This document shows, piece by piece, positions 39,638 through 63,966 of a DNA stretch of 64,000 bases (position 1 is its first letter; every line of letters starts with the position of its first letter). Source of the stretch: Planoprotostelium fungivorum. Lineage: Eukaryota > Evosea > Variosea > Cavosteliida > Cavosteliaceae. The notes below the pieces were generated by a model. That model did not search any database, was not told where the DNA came from, and saw only the letters and a program-made list of their open reading frames with translations. The stretch covers positions 124,001-188,000 of the forward strand of contig MDYQ01000207.1 in assembly GCA_003024175.1 (NCBI GenBank), read 5' to 3'. The position numbers were made by a program, and so were the translations under genes.

Positions 39638-42600
39638 ATGGACCAATCAGAAGGATGGGGAGCCAAAGGGGTCTTCTCCGTCATTCTACTCGTAGCTGGC
39701 GCGATATACATCCTCTGGCAGGTGCGTATCTGTTGCATTTTCGGAGGATCGTTCGCCGAGATGAATCACTCGGAAGAACATCTACTTCGTTCTGTCTAAA
39801 GAGTTTAAAGTCAACTGATCCTCTCGAGCAGAGACCGAAAAAGGACTCTTCCGTTGATGACACAAATTCCGCAGACGCGACCCCCACAGTCAATGCTGAA
39901 GAGATTCGACAGGCCAGGCTGAAGAGATTCGAGAGGTAATGACGATCATCGGGTACACATTCTCCTCAACGTCTAACTTTATCACAGATCTCCTCCGGCT
40001 CTGTTGAGAGAGCCTCAGAAAGAGACCACTGAGACCCAAGTGAGTTGATAACATGTTCACCCCATTCGGTTCTGATGTTCGACAAGGAGGTCGTCAACCC
40101 AGACGGAACGAAAACAAAGGCGAGGTCCTGGTCTGACGTTCCCCCAATGGAGGTGATTATCCATCTTCATCATTAATCTCCAACGAGGAAACACCTCACC
40201 GAACGACTCGTTTCACTGCCGTTATCCTTCTCAACTCGTTACAGGAGGACATCACCCCAACCAGCACTGCCCCCTCCACCGATGAACTCCTCGATACCCC
40301 CACCGAGACTCCAACTCAAACGACCGAGCCATCCTCAGCTGAATCATCGTCTACAACGACAAAGTCACCGATCAAGCCGATCAGATTGACACCAGAAGAG
40401 AGAAATCACAGGTCCATCTGCAACATCTTCCACGTCAGCTTAGACGAGGTGAAAACGATCCGTACGTCTGTTTTTCGGAAGAATTGACTCGTTGTAGACA
40501 AGAAATCAGGGAAGATACTTGAGAGAGATTGCCATGGAGAAGAAGGAGCAGTCAGAACACTTTTTCTCTGACGTAGATATCGATCCCATCATCATAGAGA
40601 GCACGATGAATCTGTCTCCCGTTCAGCAGGTGATTCTTTCTGTGTAATTTTCACGCAAATTAATCGTTGTAGATCGAACACTTTGACTCCTGTTACAAGC
40701 GCCTCCAAGCTGAGAAAAATACTGAGGTGAAGAGTCTACGAAATTTTTACTTCCATTTCATCAATGAAATATTTTCTCCTGACTCTTTTCAAATTTTTCT
40801 CATGTCTATCAGACTTCTATTTCGACCATTCAAGAGCATTGCTCCCGCAGCATCGTCAGCTTCACTGGTTTAGCAGTACAATCTAACCCAGAAGCCCTAC
40901 TGGAAATCGTAGAGAGAGATCCCTCTTCACTTCCACTGTCCAACGAACTGTTACTCAAGGTGATTTTGGCGGGAAATTTTGGGACTGATGGTACAGGTCC
41001 ACCAGGAATTTGGGACGGACGTGGAGACATCTCTTCAGTGGGTCATGAGTGCAGCGACGTCTAAATTGAAAAATGGAAAGAGGCTGTTGGATGTTGAAGT
41101 CAACCCAAGGCTGCAAGTGAGTTGTAGATAGAATATTCGAGGAAATTAATGGGTGAAGGTATTGACCGTCTTGACGAGCCATCCACTGTTTGTGAAAGCG
41201 GTGAGAAATTTGGTGGAAAATTCGATCTGACCGGTTGTAGTTGGTTGATCTACCCGAATTTCTTCCCAATGGATTGAACGGAAGAGAAATGCAGGAGAAG
41301 ACAGCCTTCGGTCCACTCTTCTCTTACTCTGTTGATCTCGTGAGTTCTCCCTCACCATCATCACTGTCATCATCGCTGACATCATCACCACCATCATCAT
41401 CTCATGTCATGATCATCTACCGCTTCCGTTTTCATTCTCGATCAAGGAGTGAACATGACTGAGAGTGAAACAGGAAGACGTTCGAGAATATTTCCGCAAT
41501 CCAACACAGATGACACTGAACAACGCACAATCATCTTACAACACCGTAAGGTCACAATTATCCAACGTTCAGGTACTTTCACCCCCTCCGAAATTTCTGA
41601 CACTTTTCTCAGAATAGTGTCCACCAGATTCTGAGAAATTGTTTACGTACGGACGATCACTGCAAGAAGAAGATTTTGGATTGGATCACAGCGGCCGTCC
41701 TGTCAAACTACAACCGGACGAAGATGCATTACGATGAAAAGTCCATCAGCACGGAAGGCTTCGTCATGAACTTGTGCATCGTTCTGTTCAAGTTCTGCTC
41801 TCCCTTTACCACCAACCGTAACGTGAGTTTTCGACGATTTTTCTATCTGACGAGAGGTACAGTTTCAAAAGATTGTGAACAGTTACATGAATCGTAACGA
41901 GAGGATATCGATCAAAGAAGAGACGAGACTGGGAGCCACACCAGAAGACGTAACAAAATATGTCGATGAAATTTCATCTAATTCTACAGAGCCACCTTCC
42001 TTTGTCACCGAGGTGAATTTTCACATTTCTCCAATATATCTTTTCATTTCCAAAAAAATTGAAGAGAAAGTTGAAGAAAAATTTAGATTTTCTTCTTGAC
42101 GTTGCACGGCTTACACACTGGTGTCGTGCGAACTCTCTCGCGGTACAACTCGTTCATTCAGAGCATCGCCAAACTGCAGGCGAAAAAGAGAGAAATGGAG
42201 GAGAACCGAGCACAGTGGGGTGCTCTAGCGGACGTCTATCTACAACGAGTCACTGCTGATCTCGAGAAGATGTACACCTACAAGTTGGCCATGGACGCTC
42301 AATTATTGGATCCGAGGTGCATTTTATTTCATTTTATTTCTCGTCTCTTTCTGACGTGGCTGGTTGTAGATTCATCGATTCTGGCCTGCAATTTTACGGC
42401 TTCGTGGCCGACTGGATGACTCAACTGGCTTTCCGCAGCAGGTACGTCCCATCTACACCGTTGTAGATGCTCATATCATACCCAGAAAATCCGTACCCAC
42501 GGAATTTTTAGTCCTGCCCGAATTTATTATCGATGATATGATCGATTATTTGTCCTTCTGCCTCAGGTGAAAAATATCTTTTGAAGATATCTCATTCACG

Positions 42601-44320
42601 TCGATTCACACTGTGACAGATATGCCTCGGACAAATTGAACGTCTTCCTATTCAACACACTGGTCGACTTCATCGTACCCATGCTCGGTGCCGGAAACCT
42701 CGTGAAGAATCCACACTTGAGATCGAGACTAGCTCAGGTGACCATCTACAACCTGCCATCCCTTCATCTACAACGCTGACGTGTCAGATACTCTACGAGA
42801 TGATACCACAAGAGGAGAATCGATTTGCAAACACACAATTCCTCCCCATTTTTGAAGGAAGTCAGATCGCTGCGGAACATCTAGTCCCCGGTCTGTTTCA
42901 ACTCTACGTCGATGTAGAAAGCACAGGGAGTGAGTACATCATCTAAACACATCGTCGATGCCTGATGTGTACATCGATGGGATGAAGAATGGGACGGCTG
43001 ACGAGATGGAATAGGAAGTCATCAGTTCTACGAGAAATTCACAGTGAGAAGACACATCGGTATCATTCTCAAACAATTGAGACAATATCCATCTTACCAA
43101 CGCTCCATCAAAGCACAGAGCAAGTGAGACTTTTCCCCGAATGTTCCATCTACAACGCTGATCTCTTTCAGAGAATCTCCCACCGTTTTCGTTCGTTTCA
43201 TCAATCTATTGGTCAACGATTGTCAGTATCTCCTGGATGAGATGCTGATCAAATTATTGGAAATCAAAGAAACTGAAACGGCCATGGAGAATCACACCGT
43301 GTGGATGGGACAAGAAGAGACGATACGTAACGACCGCTGGGTGAGTCCATCTACAACGTCTCATCAGAAACATCGTCGATTGACACGCATCAGGAAGCGT
43401 TGCAGAACAATCATCACATCGTGAAATCCTACTGTCTCTTGGCCAACGACAACGTCGATTTGTTTCACTTTCTATCGATTCACACGAAATCAGCCTTCAT
43501 GGTGCCCGAACTGGTGGATCGCATCGCTCAGATGCTCAACTACTTCATCACACACCTGACGGGTCCCAAATCCATGGACATCAAGGTGGGAATTGGGACG
43601 ATGGGTCGGAATCGGGACTGAAGATCGGAAGGTGAAAGATCCGAAACGGTTCCACTTTGATCCGAGATTCTTGCTGAGAAAACTCATCGAAATCTACTTG
43701 AATTTCTCCGGAAACGAGCAGTTTGTGTACGAAGTGGTCAACGATGGTCGTTCTTTCGGAATCCAATTATTCCGAAGGGCCATACACATCCTCAGAAAGA
43801 ACGTCATGCTACCCGAGGTATTTACTCTATTTTATTCTTTCCTCTTCTTCCTTCAAATCCATTGATTCGAATCATTTCCTAACATAAAACAGGACACCAT
43901 CTCTGCATTTGAAAAGTTTGTGGATAAGATCGAAGAAGAATCATCTCGATTAGACAGAGACCAAGAAGAACTAGGAGACATCCCGGAAGAATATCTCGGT
44001 GAAGAATCCATCCTCCATCATTCACATTCTCTACCTCTCACCATTGACACGGTATAGATCCACTGATGGGAACTCTCATGATGGATCCAGTCATTCTGCC
44101 CGACAGCAACATGACCATAGACAGACCCATCATCATCAAGCACCTCTTAAACGATCAGACGGATCCATTCAATCGAAAGCCACTGACCATAGAGGCTCTC
44201 GTGTCGAGTGAGTCACATTCGTAGAGGGAGACACTGAAGAGCTCAGATGAAAAGTTGAAGGGGGAGATACAAGAGTGGATAGCACAGAAGAGGAGAGAAG
44301 GAAAGAAGGAGAGCGTGTGA
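39638..44320 (+). CDS. Ubiquitin chain-elongation factor E4 (UFD2/UBE4) with N-terminal hydrophobic segment
   Basis: Start ATG 39638 ([15 protein letters not shown]). The first exon encodes a ~17-residue hydrophobic helix ([17 protein letters not shown]) and splices in frame to [10 protein letters not shown]. The usual UBE4 N-terminal motif [16 protein letters not shown] follows near 39900. The long core (about 40500-43900) is the Ufd2 elongating-factor domain: [20 protein letters not shown] (about 42700-42800), [38 protein letters not shown] (about 43640) and [11 protein letters not shown]. The C-terminal U-box (about 44030-44260) has [17 protein letters not shown], then [22 protein letters not shown]. 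It stops at TGA 44318-44320. E4 enzymes extend ubiquitin chains on substrates handed over by Cdc48/p97. The hydrophobic N-terminus is unusual for UFD2 and would tether it to a membrane, or it may belong to a mis-joined separate exon. Confidence 0.92.
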
Positions 44321-44478
44321 TAAAAGAGTGTTCTACTGTTTTAGTTTATCAAAGAGGAAGATGTGACGATCCTTTTGTTTTATTATGTACACTATTACAG
44401 TTGTGGGGGGTTTAGGCTAGGCCGGACGTTCACTCTGTTTACAAATGAGTGTAGGAGAAATTTCACAACATGTTATCC

Positions 44479-45179
44479 TCAGATGAGTGTGTCGGGCAGG
44501 CGCGTAGGTCTGTGAACTCCCTGAGGCTCGGCTCTGCTGGAGGTAGATTGTCTGGGCTTGGATTGTCTGGGCTTGGAAGGACGAGGTGGAACCTTCTGTG
44601 ACTCAGCGTTACCGTTCACCTCACGATTCTTCTTCAGTTCCTGCTTCTCGGCTCTCCTCTGTATGTCCTTCCTTTTCCTATCATCACGGATCTTCTGTGA
44701 TGCTCTCAATGTTTGCCGGGAATGGACCTTGTTCGTCTTGTCATTCTCGCCTCTTCCTTCTCCTCCCTTGCTCTCTCCCTTCTCACCTTCTCGACGAGAT
44801 CCCTCATGTCTTTTGCTTCATATGATCCCAACACCTCCACGATACATCTCCTAGTCAATGAGTGCCATCGAGAGGCCACAGGCCATAACTTCCTGATGAT
44901 ACTCTCCTTCTCCTCACTCAGTCTCTCCTTCTCGTCATTCTTTTCTCTTCTCTTCTCTCACATCTTTGGAGTTGATCTCTTTCACTTTGTGGTCGTTGAT
45001 TCTGTAACAACGATTGCCCCTCTTCACTTCGACCATGTAGCGACCGCTGAGGGCACGTTCTCAGATGTGGAAGTTGAGATTCGAGACGGTATGACACCTC
45101 TCCCACCCACAGCCTCTCCTCCACTTCGATACGGTAATTCAGCTTGACCATTCTGTGATACTGTATCGTTCAGTGTCAT
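44479..45179 (-). CDS. Basic protein of unknown function
   Basis: Start ATG 45179 (MTLNDTVSQNGQAELPYRS), chosen because its frame continues over the first intron (about 45092-45055) into RALSGRYMVEVKRGNRCY and INDHKVKEINSKD. After a second intron the text KLWPVASRWHSLTRR and EVLGSYEAKDMRDLVEKV follows, then a Lys/Arg/Glu-rich helical tail (SQKIRDDRKRKDIQRRAEKQ) and a Pro/Ser/Arg end (PPRPSKPRQSKPRQ) to TGA 44479-44481. The tail resembles nucleolar or ribosome-biogenesis proteins in composition only. A competing ATG at 45151 in another frame (MVKLNYRIEVEERLW) does not carry on over the intron. No family recognised. Confidence 0.5.
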
Positions 45180-56719: not shown

Positions 56720-59700
56720 TTAAATTTCGGCGAGCTGAATGGAATGTTGGCTGCAACGAGTCAATTCACGGTGGAAATCCTTATATTTCGACTCACAAGA
56801 AGAGTTGGGTGTGCTGACGCTGCCTGATCTTCTCGGTTCTAATATCAACGATCGATCGTATAACGTCTCGTTCGTGGACTGCACACGATTAAGATGGTAT
56901 CGTCAGTTGAATGTGGTTCACACCTTTGGATGAGATAAGATCATGTTCTGTATGTGTAACTGTGGCACCAACTTGTACTCTGACGTGAAGCACCTCTTGA
57001 ATTTGTTGATGATGTTCGCCACGGCTTCTAATTTCTCTGCTCGAATGAGAAAGAGAAGATGAAGAGAGAAAGAGAAGATGAAGAGGAGGACTCACGCCAA
57101 TTGATGTGAGAGTTCTCATCATAAGTGGAATTTTCTTCCAGATAGATGAGATCGTGGAAGAGAGGACCCAAGAAGGGTACCAGTGGTGGTGTCGCGCTGT
57201 CCATCAAGATTCGTATCTGTTTGTGTCCTCCATCCACATTCACCACCTATCGTGTAATCATTCATCTCATTCTATCTTCACATCACATCTCATCACATCA
57301 CATCACATCTCATCACATCACATCTCATCACATCACATCACATCTCATCACATCTCATCACATCTCATCACATCTCATCACATCGTGAGAAGATCATCAT
57401 GATGTGATGACATCAAGATGGATGTCTCACCTCACTGAGATGCTTGAAAGTCTTCATCTCTTGTGCTTTGACTGCGGCCCATCTCAATTTCAACCGGAAG
57501 ACGGAAGAGTGGTGTAGCCCCGCCATGATGGCCACCAGATCGGCAAAATTTCGGAGTTGTAGACAGTGGTCCGCTAATTTGATGGAATATTCGATGGCGG
57601 CCGCTCCATGCTGCACAGTGTCCGTGTCTAATATCATCTGAGAGATCCAATTCGTGATCTACAACGATCACGTGATCAGTTTGATGTACTCAGAGTTTTT
57701 GATGGTGTCGTGAGATGTACGTCATGATATCGTGGAGATGATGCATACCGTGTTGGACCTCTCGATCAAGAGAAGAAGGTTGTGTGCTTCTTTTTGGCGG
57801 GAATTTGGCTTCTCCCATTTCTTATTACAAAATTCTCTCATGCTGACACTACTGCTCAGATCGTACCCTGTTCCCGCATAAATATCGACGAGAAATTTCA
57901 CAGAAAATACCCAGCAGTGTCAGCTGTCTGGCGGCCTCCAGCTCAGGTACGTCCATCAGTTTCGTCACATCTACAACGCGTCAGTTTTCATCGAAATTTC
58001 GATCATCCGTCGTTGTAGATGGATGTCAGCAGTCACTCACTGAGTCTTGTCTTTATGGGTGCGTCGTATTCACTTGATATCAGGATATCCTCGCGGAGGA
58101 GGGTGACAGCATCGGCTGAATTGATCATCTTACTCCTCCCTGTCTTTCCCATCCGTAACACCTTTCATCATCAGTATCCTTCATCGTGATGGTCAGTGAT
58201 GATCATCATCACGATCATCACATCGATGATCACGATCATCACATCGATGATCACGATCATCACATCGATGATCACGATCATCACATCGATGATCACGATC
58301 ATCACATCGACGATCACGATCATCACATCGATGATCACGATGACAGAATCATTTCGAGTCTGAAGACAACGTGATATGATCTATCCTCTCACATCTTGTA
58401 TCGTCGGATCAGATATAGAGTACAACTCGTTCGGAAACCTCTTCCACCACTGTGACATCACATACGATATCCTACCCTCCGTCACCCCTCTGAAATATCG
58501 ACAATATTTCACCTCTCGTTGACGTTCGTGTTGGCCAGTAGACATTGTTTCAGCATGGACACTGTCTCGAATGCATTTGAAAAGTACGGAATCGTGAAGA
58601 GAAATGTATCATCGAAACCTGAGTGGGTCAATATGTGAAGAAGGATTTTGGCGGGAAATCACCTTCCGAGCAGTTCGTCCTGCAGAGGATGTCGATCAGC
58701 TTCTCGATGGTGGCTGATTGTAGTGTGGGCTTATTCTACAACGAGCCGATTCAATCCTCTCGATTTCGAAATTTCACCTCTCACCTCTCCCTCCTTGTTC
58801 CATTTGACAACCATCTCCGATTCGTTTGTAGACAGCTGTCATCATCAGTACTTACACTCTCATCCATCACACGATCATCACACAACCACGCATCATGATG
58901 TCCATGTGATCCCCTCCGCATATCATCCACGATCACTTATCCATCGAAAAGGTATGCCACACGAATATCTCACCGATACGAAATCAGTCAACAATTTGAC
59001 GCGGCTCTTTCTGGGTAGAGACAAAGTCTTTGTACCTCTCCTTCTGTTCCTCCAATGCGTCTGAATCGTCCTCGCGGCGGAATTCTTTCTCAATTGTGAT
59101 TCGAAATTACTCGAAATCCTTCTGACTGTTTTATCGTGAGTCGGTCGATCTACAACCTGCCACTCACCCATTCGAAAGTGCTGCTGCTTGGCTACGGAGA
59201 TCTCGACCAAATTGATAAATCGAGTTCTGACGGTGTGGGCTCTCCATGCCCTCTGGATGATGCCCGCCTTCCTGTGATGGAGTTGACACAATGTGATGGC
59301 CCTCATCCATTCTTCTTTCGTCGTTCCATCTGTTCGCCGTCAACACGGGGGTGCATGTCCATGTGATCATCGTGTCTTCACCTTTGAACGTGAGGAGGGC
59401 GATCTTGATGTGTGAGGGAATGTCGCCGCCCTCTAATTTAGTTCTTCGCAAGAGGAAGCTGTATTTGGCCTGTCTGTCCGCCTCTGGCACGACGATGTTA
59501 AATCGCGGCACCTTTTGGATTCAATCGGATGTTCAAACGCACACGTCTCACCTCTAACGTGTTGATCAGAGAGTCCGGGTCCTGAGACAATTCCGATGAG
59601 TCGATCGTTATGGATGAGATAAGAGGTAAAATCACCTTGCTGTTGGCCATAAAAGAGATCGTTCCGTTCTGCATGATCGCGTACATCCTTCCGTTCGATT

Positions 59701-60409: not shown

Positions 60410-61271
60410 TTAGTAAGAAGGGTAGTAACCTGGCTGTCCGTATGGCTGAGGAGCTCCATACTGGGGAGCAGGTGGGTAAGCTCCGTAAGCCTGAGGCTGT
60501 CCGTACTGTGGAGCTGGAGCTCCATATGCGGGCTGTCCATAACCCTCTCTTCCAGCTCCATAAGCTCCTGGAGCTGCTCCGTAGGCACCGGCGGCGGGCT
60601 TCGTTCCGCCGATCTGATGTCCAAAGAGGTTGAGTCCTTGACCGGCCTGTCCGCTCTGTATCCTCTGCTGGTGCTTGCGGTTGTAGATCTTTCGGCCGAT
60701 GCCGACGACGAAGGCCAACTTGATGAAGTTTCCAAAGGTCCAGAACTTCTGGTTGGTAGGAAGGACGGTGGGGAGGATGCCTCTCTCGGTTCCTTCTACG
60801 CTGTGGAGGGTGAGGATGATGGAAAATGGTGGATGAATCTCACTTGTTCTGGGCGTAGTTCTCGACCATGTCTCTCGACATACCTTCGCTGCCTCCCTGG
60901 AAGTTACCCTTGACCTCTCTGACGGAGTCGAGCAGATCGGCGAACTCTAAAGAGGGGTGAGACGATGAAAATGCATGACGTCACTCACCTCCGTAATCGA
61001 CGCGACCGTTTCCATCTTGGTCAGCAGTCTGCATCAGAGACTGAGCGGTGTCAAAATCGATCTGCTCTCCGGCAGCATTGAGGGCGGTCTGCAGTCCACT
61101 GACGTCCAAGAAGCCAGTTCTGTTGAAGTCACCAGCCTGGAAGAAGGCATTGTAATCTCCAGAGGCGTTGCTGGTCGCTGGTGCGCCATACTGAGGAGCT
61201 CCATATTGAGGTGCGGCACCTCCATACTGAGGTGGCATGATGTTGCTGTCATATCCGTTACCGTAGTTCAT
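60410..61271 (-). CDS. EF-hand protein with Gly/Tyr/Pro/Ala-rich ends (penta-EF-like)
   Basis: Start ATG 61271 (MNYGNGYDSNIMPPQYGGAA), a Gly-Tyr-Pro-rich N-terminus with QYGAP repeats. EF-hand 1 is AFFQAGDFNRTGFLDVSGLQ (atypical), and EF-hand 2 is TADQDGNGRVDYGEFADLL, a good calcium loop, split by an intron near 60988-60948. A second intron is near 60842-60812. The C-terminal part has a mildly hydrophobic helix (FGNFIKLAFVVGIGRKIYN) and a long Gly/Ala/Tyr/Pro-rich tail (GYGQPAYGAPAPQYGQP) to TAA 60410-60412. The N-terminus and EF layout recall penta-EF-hand proteins (ALG-2, sorcin, grancalcin), but only two EF-hands are clear. Calcium binding is likely; the target is unknown. Confidence 0.75.
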
Positions 61272-61777: not shown

Positions 61778-63966
61778 TCACTGCTTCTCTTGCATCAATT
61801 GTCTCAGGGCGTAATTCGGTACTAGGTCCTTTCCTCTCAACTTCAAGTTGGTCAGAGGAGAAGTGTCTGATCTCCTCAACCAATCTTCTATAGCCCATCT
61901 ACACCATCTTTAGACAACCGCATCATGCATCATGCATCGATCGTGATGGAGACAAAGACGTGCGATGATGATCGTGATGGCATCATCACCTCTCATATGT
62001 GTGTCCGTCCGTTGCAATGACCGGATCCACCATGACTTCACACGTGATGGGACAGTAGAAGGCATCCGGTAGATTCTATATGATGATCAGCCCCACACGT
62101 GACATCATCTCCTCACCCTGGTAGCGGGTGCCTGTGTGGGTTGTAGGAAAGATCTCAACTTTTCGATGAGATTTCTCAAAGTCGTCTTTTCGTGGAAATC
62201 TGTGATTCCCATGGATTCGAAACGGTTCTGAGTCAAGTTGATGAATTGGCCGCCGTCGATCTACAACTGTGTAAATGATACGTTCTGCTGGTGAGATACA
62301 CTGATCACCTCGTTGTTGGACAATAAATTAGCTGTACGCTCTCGGATGCCGTTGTAGATGAGCCATCTGTTCAGATCTACACTCGACCATCGGTTGACGT
62401 CCCTTCTAAGAGGTAACGCAGCATCCACGATCTCATTCAACTGAATCCATCAGCCATCAAAAATATTCGGCCCAACGATTTCACCCGAACTAAGTATTCT
62501 CCTTGGATTCCGAGCGATTGTAGTTGTCCGGATTTCATCTGGAATAATTTCCTACCGTCGATCTGTTGGGGTGAGTCCGTGGGAGGGAGTTTGACTCACT
62601 CCTTCTCTTCGGATGATGTTCTCGGTGCCGTCGAACATCTCACTCGCTTCGATCATGGAGGATAACTACAAGTCATCAGTTCTAAAGTGACGTTGATGGA
62701 AGTGAGGATGATGATGTGATGATGCTGATGTGATGATGTTGACGATGATGTGATGACGGGTTGATGTGTTGATGTTGTTGTTGATGAGGAGATATTGATG
62801 ATGAATGGTCTTGAAGTTGTGAGTGTACTCACTTGCTCCGTGTTGAGTGTCTCCAATCGTGGAACTTCGCTCATGGTCCATCCCCCGATGAGTTTCGACA
62901 ATTGATCTTTCCACTTGATCAACGATTGTTCCTCTTGGCTGGACTCTTCTTCTACAACGGCGATCTGTTTGAATCTCTCCTCACATTTCTTTCGACTCGC
63001 CCTCTCCTACATTCACCGTCATCATCCATCAATCAATATGTTCACGATCATCATCATCATCATCGACGTCTATATACCGTAAAAAATCGGTAGAAATTTA
63101 CCTGGGCCAACGACTCTTCTAATCTGGCTATCCTCTCATCGATGCGACTCATCTCTTGCACGAGATCCGTTCTCTCTCTGTAGGCAGTCTCGTGCTTGCT
63201 CTTCACATTACTCAGCCTACTGTTGAGTCCTCGGTTCATCCTCTCCAAATTGTGTTCGTCTGCATTAATTTGAGTTTCATCATTTTTTCCCTGTTCACCC
63301 TGTGGTGTCGTGACGATTGGTTGCTGCTCGACTGCAGCGGCCGTGGGTTTGAAATAAACCACGGGTGATTTACCAAATAGCTCTTGGATCTCCTGTAGAG
63401 GATCAATGGATGGAAGATGATATCATGCATGGAGGAATCTTACTCGAATGAAACCCTTGAGAGTGTGAGTGCTGGACCTCCATCCATCGAGGTAGGCGAG
63501 TTGGATTGTACCATCTAGATTCACCGCATGATTGGGCTGCTTCACGTTCAGTTGTGGATGTCGAAGGTGGAAACGTTCGATTCTACCTTGATGATGAGGT
63601 TGTTCTGCTTGACGATGCGAGAGCGAGGTCTGCTGTTTGGAAAATGTCTGTCCAATGTGATTTGAACTGGAACGGTGTATTGTCTGACGGTTAACGGTCC
63701 GTACAAGGAGACTGTATCATCGGTACCCTTATAGACTGCAGATGGATGTCAGATGTGGGTGACGATTCGATCGTGTATGTGATTCATCACCATCAAAGTT
63801 ATAATCAGAGCTGAGAGGTAATGATAGCTCATCCAGTGTCTTTCCACTGCAGATGCATCAGTGTCGGGAAGTTATGTGCCTCGAACCTGAACGATGCGAG
63901 GTAATCCCGATCCGCTTTCGTTCCAATGTTGACGGACTCCTCTTCCACTCTATCTTCGGCTCCCAT
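61778..63966 (-). CDS. UEV - coiled coil - SAM (x2, one partial) - U-box fusion
   Basis: Start taken at ATG 63966 (MGAEDRVEEESVNIG); earlier exons could lie outside the window. The UEV domain (about 63820-63350) reads YKGTDDTVSLYGPLTV, YTVPVQITLDRHFPNSRPRS, then AVNLDGTIQLAYLDGWRSST and FIREIQELFGKSPVVYFKP, closely like TSG101/Vps23, with the E2 catalytic Cys position as Gln (GTIQL). A coiled coil follows (about 63280-62840). SAM-like parts: IDGRKLFQMKSGQLQSLGIQ (about 62550) and a full SAM (SVDLNRWLIYNGIRERTANL to NLIEKLRSFL, about 62390-62160). The C-terminus is a canonical U-box (about 62080-61780): NLPDAFYCPITCEVMVDPVI, TDGHTYERW, IEDWLRRS. It stops at TGA 61778-61780. Frame is kept across every intron. 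TSG101's C-terminal steadiness box is absent. Confidence 0.88.

Follow-up and report, generated by a model that had tools for sequence, protein, structure and literature searches.

A candidate ubiquitin ligase of Planoprotostelium fungivorum joining a TSG101/Vps23-type UEV domain to a coiled coil-SAM-SAM-U-box body

We analyzed a 64,000-nucleotide stretch of the Planoprotostelium fungivorum genome (contig MDYQ01000207.1, positions 124,001 to 188,000; hereafter, the window) that carries on its minus strand a gene predicted to encode a UEV domain, a coiled coil, two SAM domains and a U-box (hereafter, the UEV-U-box gene). The hand-built model comprises 12 exons and 11 introns of 37 to 167 nt, all GT-AG, in one frame of 1473 nt (490 codons and a stop), bearing out an earlier reading made from the letters alone (hereafter, the sequence-only reading), which had described a continuous, frame-preserving exon series. 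Each of these introns, if retained, would disrupt the open frame. In window coordinates, the features are:

61778..63966, minus strand: whole gene (UEV, coiled coil, SAM, SAM, U-box), 12 exons, 490 aa
63887..63966, minus strand: exon 1, with the start codon at 63966, the first ATG of its open frame
63791..63846, minus strand: exon 2, N-terminal end of the UEV (uncertain), 56 nt versus 83 nt in the Vps23-type gene C375
63587..63735, minus strand: exon 3, UEV core (gene model and Pfam)
63444..63539, minus strand: exon 4, UEV core; C375 has both flanking introns at equal column and phase
63102..63392, minus strand: exon 5, last UEV helix, linker and coiled coil together (coiled coil by eye)
62833..63006, minus strand: exon 6, coiled coil into the start of SAM1 (WTMSEV), by eye
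62600..62665, minus strand: exon 7, SAM1 (weak)
62485..62562, minus strand: exon 8, SAM1 with its IDG motif (gene model, SAM profile)
62309..62440, minus strand: exon 9, end of SAM1 and first half of SAM2 together (gene model, SAM profile)
62117..62260, minus strand: exon 10, second half of SAM2 and linker; phase-0 intron immediately 5' of IDG, as in the paralogue C52
61990..62075, minus strand: exon 11, first half of the U-box (gene model and Pfam)
61778..61898, minus strand: exon 12, second half of the U-box and stop (gene model and Pfam)

The model is weakest at its 5' end, with an unusual intron 1 donor (GTTCGA), a short exon 2 and no match in the protein to the first 30 of the 121 positions of the UEV profile. 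The nearest open frame upstream on the same strand (139 aa) stops 176 nt short of the ATG. The gene is adjoined by an EF-hand protein with PQYG-rich ends (60410..61271, minus strand; EF-hand_7, 8.6e-9) that is penta-EF-like by eye. Elsewhere the window holds a short tandem repeat that gives HHIDDHD in one frame (58190..58370) and a second U-box ligase, a UBE4/Ufd2-type gene (41501..44500, plus strand; Ufd2P_core 2.2e-80, U-box 9.5e-17).

A profile search of the translated exons placed the UEV, SAM_1 and U-box families each above its Pfam cut-off, in the order that the sequence-only reading had given for a single chain. The U-box (PF04564) matches at 1.8e-17 over aa 425-486 (63.7 bits versus a curated cut-off of 21.4), the UEV (PF05743) at 4.5e-10 over aa 52-137 (39.9 bits versus 27) and SAM_1 (PF00536) at 2.1e-7 with its best stretch at aa 347-399, SAM and U-box together making up the C-terminus. 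SAM_2 and zf-Nse also exceed their cut-offs; the zf-Nse match falls on the U-box and is taken as a cross-reaction, and zf-RING_UBOX, located there as well, scores below its own cut-off (12.4 bits versus 25.2). The order rests on these domains and on the exons that bridge them, with SAM1 weak (by itself SAM_1 E 0.087, 13.6 bits versus 23, compared with 26.0 bits versus 23 for SAM2 by itself) and the coiled coil assigned by eye. Seven SAM peptides of this genome, to which this protein contributed two, were combined into a profile that matches known SAM chains of the PDB (best 5.7e-10), and the PDB matches of the U-box are U-box E3s (best 1.5e-14). The TSG101-like character proposed earlier for the UEV agrees both with its assignment to PF05743 and with its PDB matches, since all seven below E 1e-4 are TSG101 (best 1e-5) and the remaining ones have E values of at least 0.69.

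An exon-by-exon Pfam scan of the 36.9-Mb genome, which missed the UEV of the UEV-U-box gene, found two other UEV places, C375 and C49. Vps23_core follows 1.2 to 2.5 kb further on, on the same strand, at both, these being its only two matches genome-wide, and the UEV and Vps23_core presumably form one gene at each place. In hand-built models, the UEV introns of the UEV-U-box gene and of C375 have phases 2,1,0,0; introns 3 and 4 occupy identical alignment columns (122 and 154), and introns 1 and 2 match by phase alone, lying in a poorly aligned part at columns 26 and 45 versus 32 and 61. The C49 model has three UEV introns in phases 0,1,1, none of them at columns 122 or 154. Sequence identity points the other way, the UEV of the UEV-U-box gene being 29% identical to that of C49 versus 22% to that of C375. 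These two Vps23-type places thus differ from one another in their UEV introns, and C49 contains a long Arg/Glu-rich stretch. Thirteen columns are invariant across the three UEVs. Searching with the C375 UEV recovered C375 and C49 and missed the UEV-U-box gene, and searching with the UEV of the latter recovered its own gene and C49 and missed C375; because each query missed one of three UEVs, such searches overlook divergent UEVs and further ones may exist. From these comparisons, the UEV reads as a descendant of a Vps23-type gene, and we leave unnamed which one.

The genome has at least 12 U-box places, and 11 of them (all except C326) were examined for SAM domains. Pfam matched a SAM at four: the UEV-U-box gene, C192 (SAM_2 above cut-off at 30.1 bits in the raw frame), C464 (25.5 bits, above cut-off in the genome scan) and C52 (33.0 bits, above cut-off only as a hand-spliced peptide). 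C459 has no SAM above cut-off and was included by 37% identity over aa 374-486 (mid-SAM2 through U-box) and by motif; its SAM2-like part and U-box lie in a single 211-aa open frame. The second SAM of C192, C52, C464 and C459 is a motif recognized by eye (SAM1 of C464 scores 18.5 bits versus 20.5), and the C192 stretch has a second, weaker SAM match ~1.3 kb upstream that apparently belongs to another gene. One of the remaining places is the Ufd2-type gene of the window, and no SAM was found in three frames of 3.0 to 3.3 kb at C9, C20, C432, C58 or C173. A phase-0 SAM2 intron immediately before IDG is common to the UEV-U-box gene and C52. On this evidence the SAM-U-box half recurs at as many as four further loci, in one case following a leucine-rich repeat (LRR) array. 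That array, at C464 (L020 3509..5340), consists of 15 exons, all exactly 84 nt long and encoding one 28-residue LRR apiece (LRR_6, 2.3e-97), and 15 of the 16 LRR introns found by pattern measure 41 nt, the other 39. The coiled coil, SAMs and U-box come after the LRR exons and presumably form one gene with them; a repeat-per-exon array of this kind could vary through unequal exchange. C52 is LRR-like by eye, Pfam finding no LRR in its 278-aa frame, and the zinc finger of C192 lies under its cut-off (E 0.0025).

When the genome was searched with the part of the protein from aa 80 onward, the complete domain order turned up nowhere else. At C459, neither Pfam, applied to 3.3 kb in three frames, nor tblastn gave a UEV, a weak negative since that tblastn also missed the real C375 UEV. 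A tree of the U-boxes from nine of the 12 places (all except C173, the window's Ufd2 U-box and C326) has no starred fork, nor does it establish the SAM-U-box genes as one clade. A RING scan gave 42 matches. From the intron match to C375 and the recurring SAM-U-box half, we infer that the gene originated by the addition of UEV exons of Vps23 type to a SAM-U-box ligase.

We therefore consider it moderately probable that the UEV-U-box gene encodes an E3 ligase in which a TSG101/Vps23-type UEV reader, brought in as exons, is joined to a coiled coil-SAM-SAM-U-box body, and we favour a UEV of altered specificity that would bring a partner to the U-box. The domains, exon bridges, intron match and paralogues are read from sequence; building on them, we propose that the UEV would capture a short peptide motif, or perhaps ubiquitin, presented by partners at endosomes or linked to ESCRT, that the coiled coil and SAMs would cluster the protein, and that the U-box would recruit a charged E2 and ubiquitylate either this partner or its own chain. 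The protein would then combine in one chain what the pair TSG101 and LRSAM1/TAL provides in animals, and the link between ESCRT and ubiquitin suggested by the sequence-only reading can reasonably be inferred.

Alignment to TSG101 shows that Y68 and V141 are kept and that N69 is replaced by T, M95 by L, S143 by F, F88 by R and W75 by T, positions that we take, in choice and numbering, to contact the ligand or ubiquitin; the hairpin is also shorter by 4 residues. With only some of these pocket and ubiquitin-contact residues conserved and the start of the profile (30 positions) unmatched, binding to ubiquitin or PTAP is uncertain, and the ligand of the UEV may have changed or been lost. Loss would make the UEV a relic, with binding of tail peptides and ubiquitin gone, that serves only as a structural end on a plain SAM-U-box ligase. 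We regard this as unlikely, though worth keeping in view: the five replacements, the shortened hairpin and the short exon 2 all point to it, but the domain still passes its Pfam cut-off in an intact frame with intact splice sites, Y68 and V141 persist, and the 13 invariant columns are shared with the other two UEVs of the genome.

A reader of altered specificity is also preferred to the self-contained E2-variant/E3 that the sequence-only reading had envisaged; in a true unit of this kind, the UEV would pair in cis with a Ubc13-type E2 supplied by the U-box and build K63 chains. E2 variants such as UBE2V1 and Mms2, which have an E2-like fold without the catalytic Cys, are small single-domain partners of Ubc13, and it is Mms2/Uev1-type UEVs that partner this E2. 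The UEV here is of the TSG101 type (PF05743), whereas UBE2V1 and Mms2 belong to the UQ_con family, which is not among the 10 Pfam families listed for the protein at E up to 10, a range in which HMMER filters remove most matches above 0.1. The only Cys residues of the protein are at aa 232, 430 and 434, none within the UEV. Because the UEV is TSG101-type and without Cys, it cannot act as an E2 and the U-box must recruit one from outside; the earlier proposal is not supported on this point, and we consider pairing in cis very improbable.

Division of the locus into two adjoining genes, one encoding the UEV and coiled coil and the next the SAMs and U-box, is about equally improbable. Genes may be closely spaced here, as the upstream frame ending 176 nt before the ATG indicates, but exon 5 ties the UEV to the coiled coil and exon 6 ties the coiled coil to SAM1. 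Since exons 5, 6 and 9 all bridge domains, a two-gene reading with a separate UEV must cut at the 95-nt intron 5 (63101..63007), the one place where a gap could sit. Exon 6 contains no in-frame ATG before WTM, and AATAAA, ATTAAA and AATGAA are all absent from 63966 to 61300. One gene with a single chain from UEV to U-box is thus supported by its sequence. Least credible is that the locus is a pseudogene or the product of an assembly join, which the unusual intron 1 donor might favour but which 490 open codons, 11 of 11 GT-AG introns, a UEV/coiled-coil junction within one exon and a contig of 362,929 bases speak against.

Several known systems resemble parts of this putative ligase. It shares a PF05743-type UEV with TSG101/Vps23 of ESCRT-I, and intron phases 2,1,0,0 with the amoeba's own Vps23-type gene C375, but carries SAMs and a U-box and lacks Vps23_core (the steadiness box), which is absent from the 10 families listed by Pfam at E up to 10. 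LRSAM1 is described as LRR-ERM-CC-SAM-PTAP-RING, binding TSG101 via its PTAP and CC (PMC6364939), and LRSAM1/TAL is described as ubiquitylating TSG101 (PMC6364939, PMC7874611). Like LRSAM1/TAL, the UEV-U-box protein combines a coiled coil and SAM with an E3 domain at its C-terminus; unlike it, the protein has a UEV in place of the LRR (LRR being absent, as is WD40, from the same 10 families) and a U-box in place of the RING, and its UEV sits in the ligase chain rather than on a partner. A P[ST]AP motif was not found in the protein, where PTQAP at aa 415 is the nearest string, or in three-frame translations of C459, C192, C52, C464 and C375, so the parallel with LRSAM1 is one of architecture. 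Marin 2010 (PMC3087547) describes WDSUB1, an animal protein of the order WD40-SAM-U-box, and a protein from Monosiga that pairs a U-box with two SAMs and lacks WD40. Both share SAM and U-box with the protein reported here, which differs from them in its N-terminal UEV and coiled coil and, from WDSUB1, in having no WD40.

The sequence-only reading had known of no standard protein with this domain order. That holds in the searches made, in which six peptide patterns of the protein gave 13 stretches in viral contigs and 58 in bacterial and archaeal contigs, none confirmed; SAM-U-box proteins as such, however, are known. In the open-licence paper library searched, we found no report of a UEV domain with a U-box and SAM domain, or of a U-box, SAM domain and leucine-rich repeat in an amoeba.

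A bolder reading, which we consider rather improbable, is that this genome carries a ligase kit, in which one coiled coil-SAM-SAM-U-box body is fitted with exchangeable sensors (a UEV, an array of 28-residue-exon LRRs and perhaps a zinc finger) and may mark damaged endosomes or intracellular microbes, and in which the UEV member would fuse the TSG101-TAL partnership so that ESCRT cargo reading and ubiquitin writing become one machine. As background only, the Dictyostelium E3 TrafE is described as coordinating ESCRT and autophagy at damaged endolysosomes (PMC10181826). The presence of the SAM-U-box body behind an LRR array as well suggests a family of ligases that exchange their sensors. When two proteins are fused in one species, their counterparts in other species are often working partners, and cargo reading by the TSG101 UEV and a ubiquitin ligase, separate partners in animals, appear here in one gene. 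If the fusion is real and active, it would support the view that the functional pairing of TSG101 with LRSAM1/TAL is old, and would make ESCRT-tail reading and ubiquitin writing testable within one protein.
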